DNA of 64,000 nt from Spisula solida (lineage: Eukaryota > Mollusca > Bivalvia > Venerida > Mactridae): contig OX365952.1 in assembly GCA_947247005.1 (NCBI GenBank), positions 4,114,501-4,178,500 on the forward strand. The letters run 5' to 3'. This document shows positions 8,801 through 14,800 of the stretch, one piece after another. The position numbers were made by a program, and so were the translations under genes. Each line of letters opens with the position of its first letter. Position 1 is the stretch's first letter. The notes beneath the pieces are model-generated. The model made no database searches. It saw only the letters and a program-made list of their open reading frames with translations, and had not been told where the DNA came from.

Positions 8801-11800
8801 GGATAAGATGTTGAGAATGATTGATATAAGTTGTAGAACTTGTTCCATTATCAATGTGAAATACATTTTGTAAAAGAAAAATTATAAATTGTATTCATAT
8901 TGTTATTATTTATAATTTATATCATACTTTTTATGCATTTGTAGTAAATATATACGGAATATCACTGCAGTGTGTTGATCCGTATTACATTGAGTTGCTT
9001 GTGTAATGCCGTATCTCACAAGACCGCTAGGTCGAGTGAGATGCGGTATGGGGCAAGCAACGAGAGGTAATACGGCTAAACGGATCAACACCAATTCAGT
9101 AATATTCATTTTATTATATACCTTCAAAAGTGAAAAAGGCGCTGTTACGCGTGAAAATGCGTTTGATGTGTATACATTGACGTCATGAACGTCGGCTTAT
9201 GTTCGGCATATAACGCGACGCTCATTCATAAAAAGACAATTGTTTACGTCGTGACGTCATTGAAGTTGGCATATGTTCGGCATATAACAAGCCAGACATG
9301 CATGATACGGATTCGGAAAACCAGACATGTATGATACGGAAAATGCAATCTGTCGCGTTGTATTCCACTGTGCGATTTGGTCAGTATTCGTGACAATGCA
9401 TTGCTAGGTATATAATAAATACATGTATATACATGTAATTTATATGTATAATAATGGTTATTTTATATAATCTTGTTTTATTGTGCTAGTATGTATAGTT
9501 TGACTTTCTATGCATCATACATAAATGTTCTTTATCCTGTTCTTGCTTGCCTGTAAAACCATGAAGACTTAATTTATTAATTGTTGGGACAAAGTTGATA
9601 TAATTTGATTTGTTAAAGTAAAACATGTATGGTTCAGGTGAGGTAGCCGAGTATTGGTTAAAAAAAAAGAACACAAAAATCGAAGATAGGCATGGAAACC
9701 CATACTGAACTATACATGTTTGTATATGATCTAACATTATACATTTGTATTTTGATTGTTACAAGATCCCACTAAAATGTTATTCATACATACGACTAGT
9801 TCATAATCGTGGTGAAAGTCTTATTTTTGTTTTTAAGCATGAGAAAACTAATTATATTTTGTCGAAAAACATTTGGTCAAAAATGAGGTAGTGCCCATGG
9901 GCCATTTTAGTAGTGTGCTGCACGCAGTTAGCAATATCACAACATCATGGGCATGCGCTAATCATGCAGTGTGCTGCGGCTGTTATCATGCAGTCACTAT
10001 CATGCGCAAGTGCTACAGTGCGCTACTGCTGTTGACGATAAATATCACTTGGGGCGATCTCATTATAACATTGATACTAGTATGATATGTATTGTTATTT
10101 TACGCTACCTGCGATTCATTCAGGGACCGAATCACTGAGGACGATTACATATCAACAGCTTGGCTTCATGTCTCCAATATATCGGCTCTTGGAGAAAATG
10201 GTTGGTCAAAAACACGGGATTATACAACTTTTATATTTTATATGCAGATTAATCATGGTGTAAAACTTATAAATGCTAATAAGGGCTATTTTATAATGCT
10301 TTTAATTTATTATTATTATTTAATTATTATTTTAGCTTAAATCATTCATATTCAACATGTAATTGTGCTAAATTTCTCAGTGTTGTGCTTATTAGGTTAA
10401 AGCTTTAGTCAAGCCATTTTAGGGTTATGCACATCATTCATATGCATGAAGTTGGACATTATTTTCAGTTTCATTGTGAATTGAGCCTGGAAAAGTCTTG
10501 GAAAGTGAGTTTTGTTTGAAAAAGTCATACAAAAACATAAAAAGGAATAAAAAACAGAAAAGACGGCTTTTTTACTTGACCATTACTTTCATTAATAGTT
10601 ATGCTGCCAACATATAAAATATACACAATCCTTTAGAAGATCCCTTTTATATCCCTTATCAGCATTTATAGGAAATAATACAGCTTACTTTATGTTTTAG
10701 CTTGCAGGGTCTCCTTATTGTTCATATATCACACCGCTTATCTCTCTTTTTCTCAGGGTGTTGTCTCCTATAATCTTATTTGTATTGTATTAACTTGGTA
10801 CGTTTCCAATTCTACTTTTCCATTTTGGAAATTGTAATTTTTAGGGAACGTAGATTCTTAGATTAAAAAACAGACAAGAGGAAGCCCTTGTTCCATATTT
10901 GGGAGCTTGGATCAATCGTGCGGTTCATATTTCATGTTCATGTTCAACTACGAAATCAACAAAAATTCATCCCCACGATAATTACGTGAGCTATGTCTAG
11001 ATGGTATTGATAAAATTTGATGTTTCTGTGTGCTTAATTGGCTGTTTAAATACAACAAACTCCAAAATTGTCAAGATGGTCAATTCCGATTATCAAAATT
11101 CCTATAAATAATGAATCAAACGACCACATTTGAGGGGTTTTGACCTACGGACAGATAACGTGAAATCAGGCGGTGAAGTCACTTGAATACCTGGAACTTG
11201 TTGCCTAACCAAACCACGAAGCGAAAAAATCAAATGCTCCCTGTTGGCGCTACTGAATCGGTCGGTTGCATAAGAAAGGGCTCGGTAATGCTCGCCTAGC
11301 AAAGTGCTGAGAAACGGTATGCTATCGGCGAGCAGGTAGCGTGTCGTTGCATAGATATAATAATGCGCTCGATAGCCCTATTCAGTAGTGCTTTGGTTAG
11401 GCAACAGGCTCATGTTCATTTATACTAACTAACATTTTATATTCTGGTTTTAGGTGTCTATCATTTGAATAATATTGCATCCTGTACCACTGCACTAATT
11501 GTCATTATATTATATATTGTGTTGTTGTTCCATCAGTCATATCATGCATGATTAATGTTGTATATACAGTAAAGCCTCAGATAAAGGCCATGCGTGTCAA
11601 TTGTAAGTCCAGTCTGTGCATTTAAGATTTGAAACTACTTGCTCGAATAAGCAAAATTGCACAGTCTTCCTTTATATACTCTATACATAATTACTGCTAA
11701 AGTTACTGGCCTGAATCAACAATTACTTGTCCCGGACTACTCAACAAATGCTCATTTCGCAGTCTGTAAGTAAGTTCACCTCAATAAGCAGCCCACCTAA

Positions 11801-14800
11801 AAAAATTACAATTGTGTACCTTCGTCTACCTTAAGTTGTTCCTAATGCAGGAGAGCAGCTTGTTTCTCTTTATTTGGCTCTATTTCTTCAGTTGTTTGAT
11901 AATGTATTCTTCAGGTCTGTTTTCACTGTTTTGCTCTTTATTTATCCTCAATATTAAGGCCAACTCAATAAAAAGATCAGTTTACGATGGTCCCAAGGAG
12001 GTTCTAATTTCTTGAGGTTTTACTGTATATTCTAGTATATGTGTCTGTTTGTTATGTGTTCTTATAATGTCATTATTATATCACTATGTTTAATATAAGA
12101 GACATTATGATTATCATACTGACCTATTATGTCCTTGGCTTCATAAAATATTTCAATTTGGATTTGACAACTTTCAATTTTAAGTCTTTTTATCGGCATT
12201 ATTTATGTTCTTCCTTAAAATTTACTCAAGTAATTTGATATATCTCCTTGTTAGTCCTTGTCATTCAGGCAGTAAAAATGTAAAACTATAACTGTTAATT
12301 ATGATGCAATCGTATAAGTTAACTGTCGAGCCCTATGTAATCATATAAATTTACTGTTGAGCTGTCTGGGTTTGATTCCCAGTTGCGACAGGTAATACCC
12401 TTCCATTGACAATTTGACAACCATTTCAATTTTCTTCAACATTCTAAGAATTTGCTGGTTCCTTGTGGAAGGGTATTAAGTTAGTACTGGTTTGGATTAA
12501 GTCCAGGAAAACTGGTTAGGTGAATCAGCCGCCTCTTGTTGAAAACAGATGTACCATACACAAACAGACACAGATTGGAGACAAAGGCTATACTTGAGAT
12601 GTTTTATGAAGCTATTTAGGATCATAAGTATGTAGACAGTGTGTTATAATGTGAAATAATTGTATGAATTTGGAAGAATAAATGGTTAGTCTTTGATTTG
12701 AGAGTTATAAATCAAATATGTCATTACACAGAGAGATTAATGTACACATCAATATCCCATAGAACTTGGTCGAACAATCTCGTGATTTGATAACACACTG
12801 TCTTCATTAATCATTATATGATGTTTATACTATATATTAACAATCTAGACACATGTATTAATATATTGCCTGTGTTATATTGGAATTATATGCATGTATC
12901 TCCCGGGAATGCAGCGTCACATAGTGCTGTTGCTATAAACGGCTCACAAGGTATTGCATGCTCCTTATGGACATACCTTTACTTATAAATGTGCACACAC
13001 TATACGAGATGCGCTTTTTATCGGAACAGGGACAGGATTACTGAGGATGATACTATTGGTACATGTTTTCTCGAGGTTTCCCATATGTCGTCTCCCGGAG
13101 ATCAGGGTATACAACTCATGTTTGCTTTATTCCTTCATATATGGTTCCAAGTTCTGTAACTCATGCTTGTATTATAGCTACTAACTATTTCTTTATAATT
13201 TCTGTAACTGCATTTTTAAACACATTAGAGTTGAATATTATGTTTATTTATGCCTAATTTGTCTACCCATGTTTATTCATACATTTTGTACTGTTCCCTT
13301 CTGTAAGTAACCGTTAGGCGATACTTTATAAGTGGTTAGGCGATACTTTATAAGTGGTTAGGCGATACTTTATAAGTGGTTAGGCGATACTTTATAAGTG
13401 GTAAAGTTAGCAACATTGAAATATTCAAAAAAATTAAGAATTGACTGTTTAATTTGCCAGTATTTCATCTAGCAACAAACATGTAGAGCTCTATTAAGAA
13501 ATTAAAAAACTGCTACTGTTTAAAAAATATCATTTATTAGTTGTTTAACAGTTTCTACACTATGTATATTTTCACGAGCATTTGTATTTTATTTTTCAAT
13601 TATAAATGTGAATACTCTTCACTTTCCTACACATTTTAGCTCATTTAGATGGTAAATTCACTTTGATTGTTGTGTGTTGTACAATTTCCCCCTTGCACTA
13701 TTTCGCTAATCTGTAGTAAGGTGTTGTGACAAAATTTAAAAAAAGTTGTGTTTCACAATTAGTCTTAGCATGCACCTTATAATGTTTTTCTTAATGATTG
13801 TAATTTGACATTGTTTGTATGTAAATAATTTACATTTATTTTAAGTAAACACTGTAATAAAGTGTATATAAATGTCATGGCTGGAGGGCAGCATGCTGTA
13901 TTGCTGTAGACCCTTATGTCATTAAATATTCATTTACATAATCTAACTATAAGAACATACCAATTTAGCACTTTTTACAAAACAATAGAGAGACCATATC
14001 TAATGGGTGGGTTTGGTGAGTGAGCATCTACTAGTATTAACTTCCATATTATGATTTTTAGTGTTTACAGAAATCTATGAGTCTACACTATAACAGTTAC
14101 TGTTTGTACATAAATGCATGTCTCATAATTTCATTTATTATCAGACATATTATGCATGGTATCAGACTCTAAATTAATTGCGTATGTCATAAGTATACAT
14201 TTTGATAAGATATTTGCTAGTCCACTCTGCTGATGGTTGTAGGATTTGTATTATTCAGTTACCTAAGAATTTTTTTTATTGAACCATTGACCCGCAGCCG
14301 TCTTCCAGTGGTTAGTGAGCCAGATTTGCAACCAGGAGATCTGGGTTCAATTTTGCTCGCAGCATGTCATACATACGGTACTCTTTCCATGAAAGATTGA
14401 CAACAATGTTGATTTTCCTCCAAATGTGGAGAAGTTGCTGGTTCCTTGTGTAAGGCTTAGTTAGTACTGGTTAAAACTGGTCCAGCAAAACTGATTAGGT
14501 GAATCTACCGAATGTGTTTAACCCCGAATAAACAAGCATCATTAATTGATAATTGGCAATTAGGAATTTGCCTTAAATGAGACTACTTGTAGACCTATCA
14601 TAGTCTGGATTAAACTAAAACCTCATCACAAACTTTAGACATCCTTCATATATGGAATAATCTGGACTAGCTGCACAGGAAAGAATGAACTTTTTTGGAG
14701 AATATATTCAAAATATTGACTAAAATTTTAATTATGGTCATTTGAAATTTCCATAGCTGGATTTTCGCCATAGAATAATGTTTGAAACAGAGCTTTGGTG

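Follow-up and report, generated by a model that had tools for sequence, protein, structure and literature searches.

A tandem exon pair, probably used one exon at a time, in the C2C domain of a ferlin gene of the bivalve Spisula solida

Ferlins act in membrane repair and vesicle fusion, and they are linked to muscular dystrophy and deafness. We analyzed a stretch of 64,000 nucleotides (nt) from the bivalve Spisula solida (contig OX365952.1, positions 4,114,501 to 4,178,500 of the forward strand; hereafter, the window). A ferlin gene in this window has two similar exons of 77 nt, here called exon A and exon B, in the region encoding its C2C domain, and an initial annotation, made from the sequence alone, proposed that the two are mutually exclusive. 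The locus raises the question of whether the gene really chooses between the two exons and, if it does, which part of the protein is altered by the choice. In our view, A and B go back to an old tandem duplication of one exon in a molluscan type-1 ferlin, are both functional and are used one at a time, and we give this reading, which comes from sequence comparison, a probability of about 85%. We favor alternative use because both versions occur in relatives of the clam, because the label A or B is scattered over the tree of the genes, and because each listed isoform cluster of the oyster Ostrea edulis carries one version only.

The exon pair and its reading frame

Both exons consist of 1+75+1 nt, they start and end in equal phases, and each is preceded by AG and followed by GT. 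The flanking exons, which end at 8435 and start at 15433, are in a phase compatible with either of them (Table 1). At the protein level 14 of 25 residues are identical between A and B, and at the nucleotide level 50 of 77 positions. The lengths, phases, coordinates and residue identity given in the initial annotation were all borne out.

The pair is an old duplication. Six of the 14 identical residues are encoded by different codons, the second codon position is better conserved than the third (20 of 25 identical against 11 of 25), and the proportion of differing sites is 0.59 for synonymous (pS) and 0.29 for nonsynonymous sites (pN). These values agree with the earlier proposal of an old duplication under selection at the protein level. 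As a check on chance similarity, we collected 85 open segments of 77 nt bounded by AG and GT from both strands of the window, exon A included; B shared 14 residues with A, and the next best segment shared 5. When exon A was used as the query, B was recovered at E=1.9e-6 in 104 kb. A blastn comparison of each exon together with 300 nt on either side gave a single clear piece, 25 nt at the exon starts (E=0.001); every other piece had an E of at least 0.19, that is, no clear similarity of the introns was detected within this range. Because of the synonymous and third-position divergence, and because the introns lack clear similarity, we regard the pair as an old duplication and not as a copy made by the assembly. 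The donors of A and B also differ, and an assembly artefact or a recent segmental copy is almost certainly not the explanation.

A third copy was sought with a profile of 131 distinct exon peptides, and none was found in the gene, in its 10-kb flanks or in 20 kb of a paralog. The profile recovered A and B, then a match in the paralog, and then nothing below E 0.48, the value of the next match in the gene.

When A alone or B alone was spliced in, the frame stayed open through the next four exons. When both were included, a stop appeared 354 nt after the start of the upstream exon at 8323, and when neither was included, a stop appeared 183 nt after the same start. That is, the frame forces the use of one exon at a time, as had been proposed. 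The same behavior of the frame bears on another explanation, namely that only one exon is in use, the second being either a dying copy or a poison exon, which shifts the frame and lowers the output of ferlin. Since both or neither gives a stop, either exon could be the poison exon, and the donors of both are weak. However, both exons are open and constrained, as the pN and pS values show, and each has a close match in other clam ferlins: A in Mya (P0003, 21/25 residues) and Ruditapes (P0002, 20/25), and B in Mactra (P0001, 21/25). Moreover, a poison exon need not keep the strand pattern of a C2 domain and the heptad DRITEDD with which both exons begin. We consider this explanation very improbable.

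If A and B are used one at a time, the exclusivity is probably kept by regulation at the weak donors and by nonsense-mediated decay of wrong combinations. Scored with rough splice matrices, the 43 donors of the gene model had a median of 3.4, and those of A and B had values of 0.1 and -1.1; the acceptors were ordinary. Among these 43, four are as weak as that of A and two as weak as that of B. Counted among the 43 are the donor of B itself and a boundary that is misplaced (the exon ending at 5223), so that no well-placed donor is weaker than that of B. Steric exclusion is unlikely because the intron between A and B measures 2,829 nt. An unusual intron class (AT-AC or U12) was considered and rejected: the donors read GTATGT, GTTGGT and GTATAC and fit neither AT-AC introns nor the U12 consensus.

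Near the pair there are three TGCATG words, two upstream of B and one 243 nt downstream of A. We take this word to be a possible Rbfox site, and the layout is the one expected if Rbfox favored A. It serves as a lead only, because an equal richness in this word occurs at 262 of 8,600 equivalent placements across the window; the enrichment is weak and post hoc.

As judged from its predicted protein, the host gene is an intact type-1 (myoferlin/dysferlin-like) ferlin. Guided by the Mactra antiquata protein P0001, the top match among the matches listed (81% identity over 45% of the query), we assigned 44 exons to the window and the sequence flanking it; a short stretch of P0001 (residues ~345-359) has no placement in the model. 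The joined exons give one open frame of 1,628 amino acids, from inside C2C to a hydrophobic C-terminal anchor, and Pfam finds C2 (three stretches), FerA, FerB, dsrm_Ferlin and Ferlin_C in the spliced window protein. Pfam DysF gave no match in the window protein at 1e-3. The exons at 21668-26622 look like the DysF region, and some homologs carry PF06398, which we take to be DysF. The source genome has 932 Mb, and the closest named relatives, Mactra, Ruditapes and Mya, all belong to Imparidentia.

Elsewhere in the gene, exon duplication is limited to a partial copy of the 54858 exon, in inverted orientation, and to weak similarities inside the DysF-like stretch. The inverted copy (54734-54931 against 57141-56944 on the minus strand) comprises 198 nt at 98% identity, takes in the acceptor and the beginning of that exon, and lies in a later intron. 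This recent inverted duplication could form a hairpin in the transcript. Downstream of exon B, at ~13311-13400, lies a 22-nt tandem repeat (GTTAGGCGATACTTTATAAGTG) in four copies.

Table 1. Features of the ferlin locus, in window positions
Feature	Position	Strand	Remark
Type-1 ferlin gene body within the window (predicted)	2738..62983	+	exons continue beyond both window ends
Common upstream C2C exon, end ...IRLSMRDW (first loop-3 Asp and Trp), phase 2	8323..8435	+	donor TTG/GTATGT; 91% to P0001 over the match; splice model
Intron 5' of exon A, 1,688 nt	8436..10123	+	
Alternative exon A, 77 nt	10124..10200	+	weak donor ATG/GTTGGT
Intron separating A and B, 2,829 nt	10201..13029	+	GT-AG
TGCATG word 3' of A	10443	+	243 nt 3' of A
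TGCATG words 5' of B	12891, 12955	+	feature 12891..12960
Alternative exon B, 77 nt	13030..13106	+	weak donor AGG/GTATAC
Intron 3' of exon B, 2,326 nt	13107..15432	+	
Common downstream exon	15433..15533	+	94% to P0001; splice model

Position of the exchange in the C2C domain

We located the exchange by alignment with myoferlin, whose C2C domain is described in the available part of a cryo-EM study as a main calcium- and phosphatidylserine-dependent membrane contact of the protein (PMC12264198). In loop 3 of that domain, the same part of the study gives D444, W445 (through its backbone), D446, T449 and D452 as Ca2+ ligands and R447, L448 and K450 as lipid contacts, with the phosphatidylserine headgroup lying between loops 3 and 4 (PMC12264198). 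In our alignment the alternative exon begins at the position of D446, and its first seven residues, DRITEDD, which occupy the positions from D446 to D452, are identical in A and B. Both versions read DWDRITEDD together with the upstream exon, so that the residues expected at the ligand positions D444, D446, T449 and D452 are all present. The Asp positions of the loop are kept in both, and 11 of the 18 residues after the heptad differ, as had been noted for the strand that follows the loop. The place of the exchange itself had to be corrected. The initial annotation put it at the end of calcium loop 3; since the two exons share DRITEDD, no ligand or lipid-tip residue is predicted to change, and by this alignment the swap concerns strand beta6 together with the first part of the beta6-beta7 loop.

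B carries the motif IGT, of which the Gly is Ser in A. Either spliced version passes the cut-off of 22 for a C2 domain (32 and 36 bits), and the two match solved ferlin structures about equally (157 and 160 bits to myoferlin).

We propose that each exon would complete calcium loop 3 of C2C by contributing its second half and would also provide strand beta6. The heptad that binds calcium and touches lipid would be kept, and the choice would alter the strand that backs the loop, including the Gly found in the IGT motif of the B form. The choice may in this way tune the stiffness of the loop and its lipid contact, or the packing of C2C against neighboring ferlin domains, and it may do so by tissue; both the tissue regulation and the biochemical effect are what we infer from the sequences.

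A different suggestion, made in the initial annotation, is that the exons mainly alter the calcium affinity of C2C. The exon does start inside loop 3, and the make-up of the T449 position differs between the versions of molluscs: in the peptides described in the next section, this residue is Asn in 10, Ser in 6 and Thr in 3 of the 19 A versions, and Thr in 10, Ser in 5 and Asn in 5 among the 22 B versions. In the window gene, however, A and B do not differ at any of the seven loop residues that the exon encodes, and these include ligand positions according to the available part of the myoferlin study (PMC12264198). A main effect on calcium affinity seems to us rather unlikely. Two calcium or membrane behaviors of C2C, as had also been suggested, are possible.

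Versions of the exon in other animals

The homologs consisted of 120 listed proteins out of 2,229 that passed, taken as 90% clusters, in which isoforms inside a cluster are unseen. A simple pattern located the exon segment in 118 of the 120. Among the matches listed, we obtained 41 mollusc exon peptides, of which 22 are B-like (Gly) and 19 are A-like (Ser, Cys or Ala at the same position). Bivalves account for 13 B-like and 8 A-like peptides, gastropods for 6 and 8, and cephalopods for 2 and 3; a chiton adds one B-like peptide. The unnamed proteins P0009, P0012, P0023, P0025 and P0227 were classed by identity and, except P0227, by their place in the tree. Repeated Ostrea peptides, Saccostrea cucullata P0050, Babylonia P0049 (B-like) and P0048 were left out of this count and of the exon tree. 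A search of partial proteins (90 matches) gained one A-like (P0227) and one B-like (P0232) mollusc fragment. A search with the region of P0008 returned, in its best 120 of 309 matches, mostly vertebrate dysferlins and myoferlins and no further A-class mollusc.

Two trees were compared. The gene tree was built from the flanking protein, with the exon removed, of 33 molluscs and 4 outgroups (one protein per species or gene; Babylonia P0049 was included, and the second Ostrea and Saccostrea versions, P0040, P0052, P0227 and P0232 were left out). To explain the A/B labels on this tree of 37 ferlins, 12 changes are required; when the labels are shuffled, the mean is 12.5-12.6. Close pairs carry different versions: the unnamed P0012 and Pecten P0013 are 93% identical, and the cephalopods P0023 and P0025 are 87% identical. 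On the tree of exon peptides, from which the defining residue was removed (21 columns, few firm branches), the label needs 2 changes, against 13.8 when shuffled. The scattered labels argue that A and B are not paralogs or fixtures of lineages, and the scatter on the gene tree together with the clustering on the exon tree points to an old exon pair of which each record samples a single isoform. By pairwise counts, window A is nearer to the A versions of Mya (21/25) and Ruditapes (20/25), and window B nearer to Mactra B (21/25), than the two window exons are to each other (14/25).

All 14 listed isoform clusters of Ostrea edulis, which are on contigs of equal size, carry exactly one of three versions; two clusters are A-like, and two and ten have one or the other of two B-like forms. 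In Saccostrea echinata, X8 and X3 carry two different versions. Contigs of 6.6-7.3 kb contain A alone (P0009, P0025) or B alone (P0012, P0023), and since they are barely longer than the coding sequence of 2,008-2,028 amino acids, they are presumably spliced transcripts. One version in Ostrea edulis (P0020, P0021 and others) occurs with or without four extra residues, GPED, perhaps by an alternative donor of the same exon.

The A-like and B-like versions of the relatives might instead come from different paralogs or from repeated origins, and the pair in the window would then be specific to its lineage. Two Babylonia proteins with different versions (P0010, P0049) lie on contigs of unequal size, the clam versions group together on the exon tree, the B version of Mya is no nearer to window B than to A, and no single gene with both exons was found in gastropods or cephalopods among the matches listed. 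Against this explanation stand the label, which is scattered on the gene tree like shuffled labels, the versions of Ostrea and Saccostrea, which are numbered isoforms on contigs of equal size, and the models of Mya and Mytilus, which contain both exons. Furthermore, just one further ferlin locus was found in the same genome (G000:C5:13622001-13642000; L004, L005). It looks otoferlin-like and, in the 20 kb read, has a single loop-3 stretch, split at another place. We judge paralogs or repeated origins to be unlikely. The expectation that other molluscs have a second exon held in part: both versions are found across bivalves, gastropods and cephalopods, and both in one model in Mya and Mytilus.

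Several results weigh against an old pair used one exon at a time. The naming of A and B rests on a single residue, and the loss of Gly is not confined to molluscs. The B version of Mya, compared over 20 residues, agrees at 11 of 20 with window A, window B and Mya A alike, and at 13 of 20 with Mactra B; it is a partial peptide (the last 16 of the first 20 columns, the first of those trimmed by the model), and that of Acanthosepion (P0232) is without its first two residues. Because Mya B is equally near A and B, one-to-one orthology of B is not established there. The exon tree puts the clam A versions with the clam B versions (93/94), and for the A group as one clade p is 0.43, that is, the test does not reject it and the tree does not show it. 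In clams, a separate duplication may have taken place later, or gene conversion may have partly homogenised the two exons. The models of Mya (P0040) and Mytilus edulis (P0052) hold both exons, A and then B as in the window. Because the preceding exon is incomplete in P0040 and B is without its head there, we read the two models as forced annotation, which is our own reading. Finally, in a search for pairing between the introns, the longest runs were no longer than in shuffled sequence, and the mechanism of exclusion gains no support from there.

Among 19 non-mollusc outgroups of our own choice, 17 have the Gly. Of the other 70 listed proteins, 61 have it (a wrong match in P0091 was corrected), 8 do not (in one of these, P0073, the segment is out of register), and one is without the pattern. 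Non-molluscs that lack Gly mostly have Ala; Rotaria P0082 and an annelid, P0113, have Cys. The latter, from Dimorphilus gyrociliatus, is the protein without the pattern, and its C2C segment DEDTICTTFLRLSDIS reads ICT, with Cys for Gly as in the molluscan A class. In the bdelloid rotifer Rotaria sordida, the models P0082 and P0220 fuse one first version (LQFDDITCSTLL...) with two different second versions at the same place in C2C, and other bdelloid models have a single version each. It is possible that bdelloid rotifers have an independent exon array.

Known splice switches and the meaning of the pair

The C2A domain of dysferlin reportedly has an alternative first exon, and the title of the 2014 report by Fuson is said to name Ca2+-dependent and Ca2+-independent binding. 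It resembles the clam pair in that a ferlin C2 domain has two spliced versions, but an alternative first exon in C2A is different from tandem internal exons in C2C. An alternate exon 1 of dysferlin is mentioned in the available part of PMC2923515. Exon 17 of dysferlin, in the beta6-beta7 loop of C2C, is typically left out in blood, and the form without it is effectively absent in muscle (PMC9333456, available part). This exon concerns the same domain and almost the same place as the clam pair; however, it is a cassette insertion after beta6 and not a swap of homologous exons (PMC9333456). In the available parts of the papers, the splicing described for ferlins is of the cassette and alternative-start types (PMC9333456, PMC2923515, PMC1853072).

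For Syt1, Syt34 and Esyt2, the available part of Craxton 2010 (PMC2823689) describes mutually exclusive exons that affect C2 domains and are said there to have arisen several times. As in the clam, alternative exons of these invertebrate genes replace a portion of a single C2 domain. The genes are of the synaptotagmin type, however, and the exchange affects the centre of Syt1 C2B or the first C2 of Esyt2 (PMC2823689, same part), whereas the clam exons belong to a ferlin C2C, start inside loop 3, measure 77 nt and shift the frame if misused. The tandem duplicated exon substitutions of human genes, in which homologous exons are swapped and which are mostly ancient, form the same general class as the clam pair, and the word dysferlin does not occur in the available part of that set (PMC9741552). 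The initial annotation knew of no such switch in described ferlins, and none turned up in our literature search, which covered mainly titles and the starts of abstracts and few subscription journals. Mutually exclusive exons of C2 domains were already known; the clam pair apparently has a deep history.

A wider picture may be drawn tentatively. The loop3-beta6 exon of C2C could be a standing splice switch of molluscan ferlins, duplicated before the split of bivalves, gastropods and cephalopods, with A (Gly lost) and B (Gly kept), three versions in oysters, and parallels in a separate array of bdelloid rotifers and in the exon 17 switch of vertebrate dysferlin just downstream. The pairwise counts, including Mya B, weaken the reading of a deep single duplication and raise that of separate origins, and we consider this picture possible but doubtful. 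If it is true, this strand would be the place where splicing tunes ferlins across animals.

For this gene, models with both exons in one protein are probably wrong. A natural pair that keeps every loop-3 ligand and changes the supporting strand would be a ready-made experiment on the role of that strand in membrane binding, and molluscan tissues can show where each version is needed.

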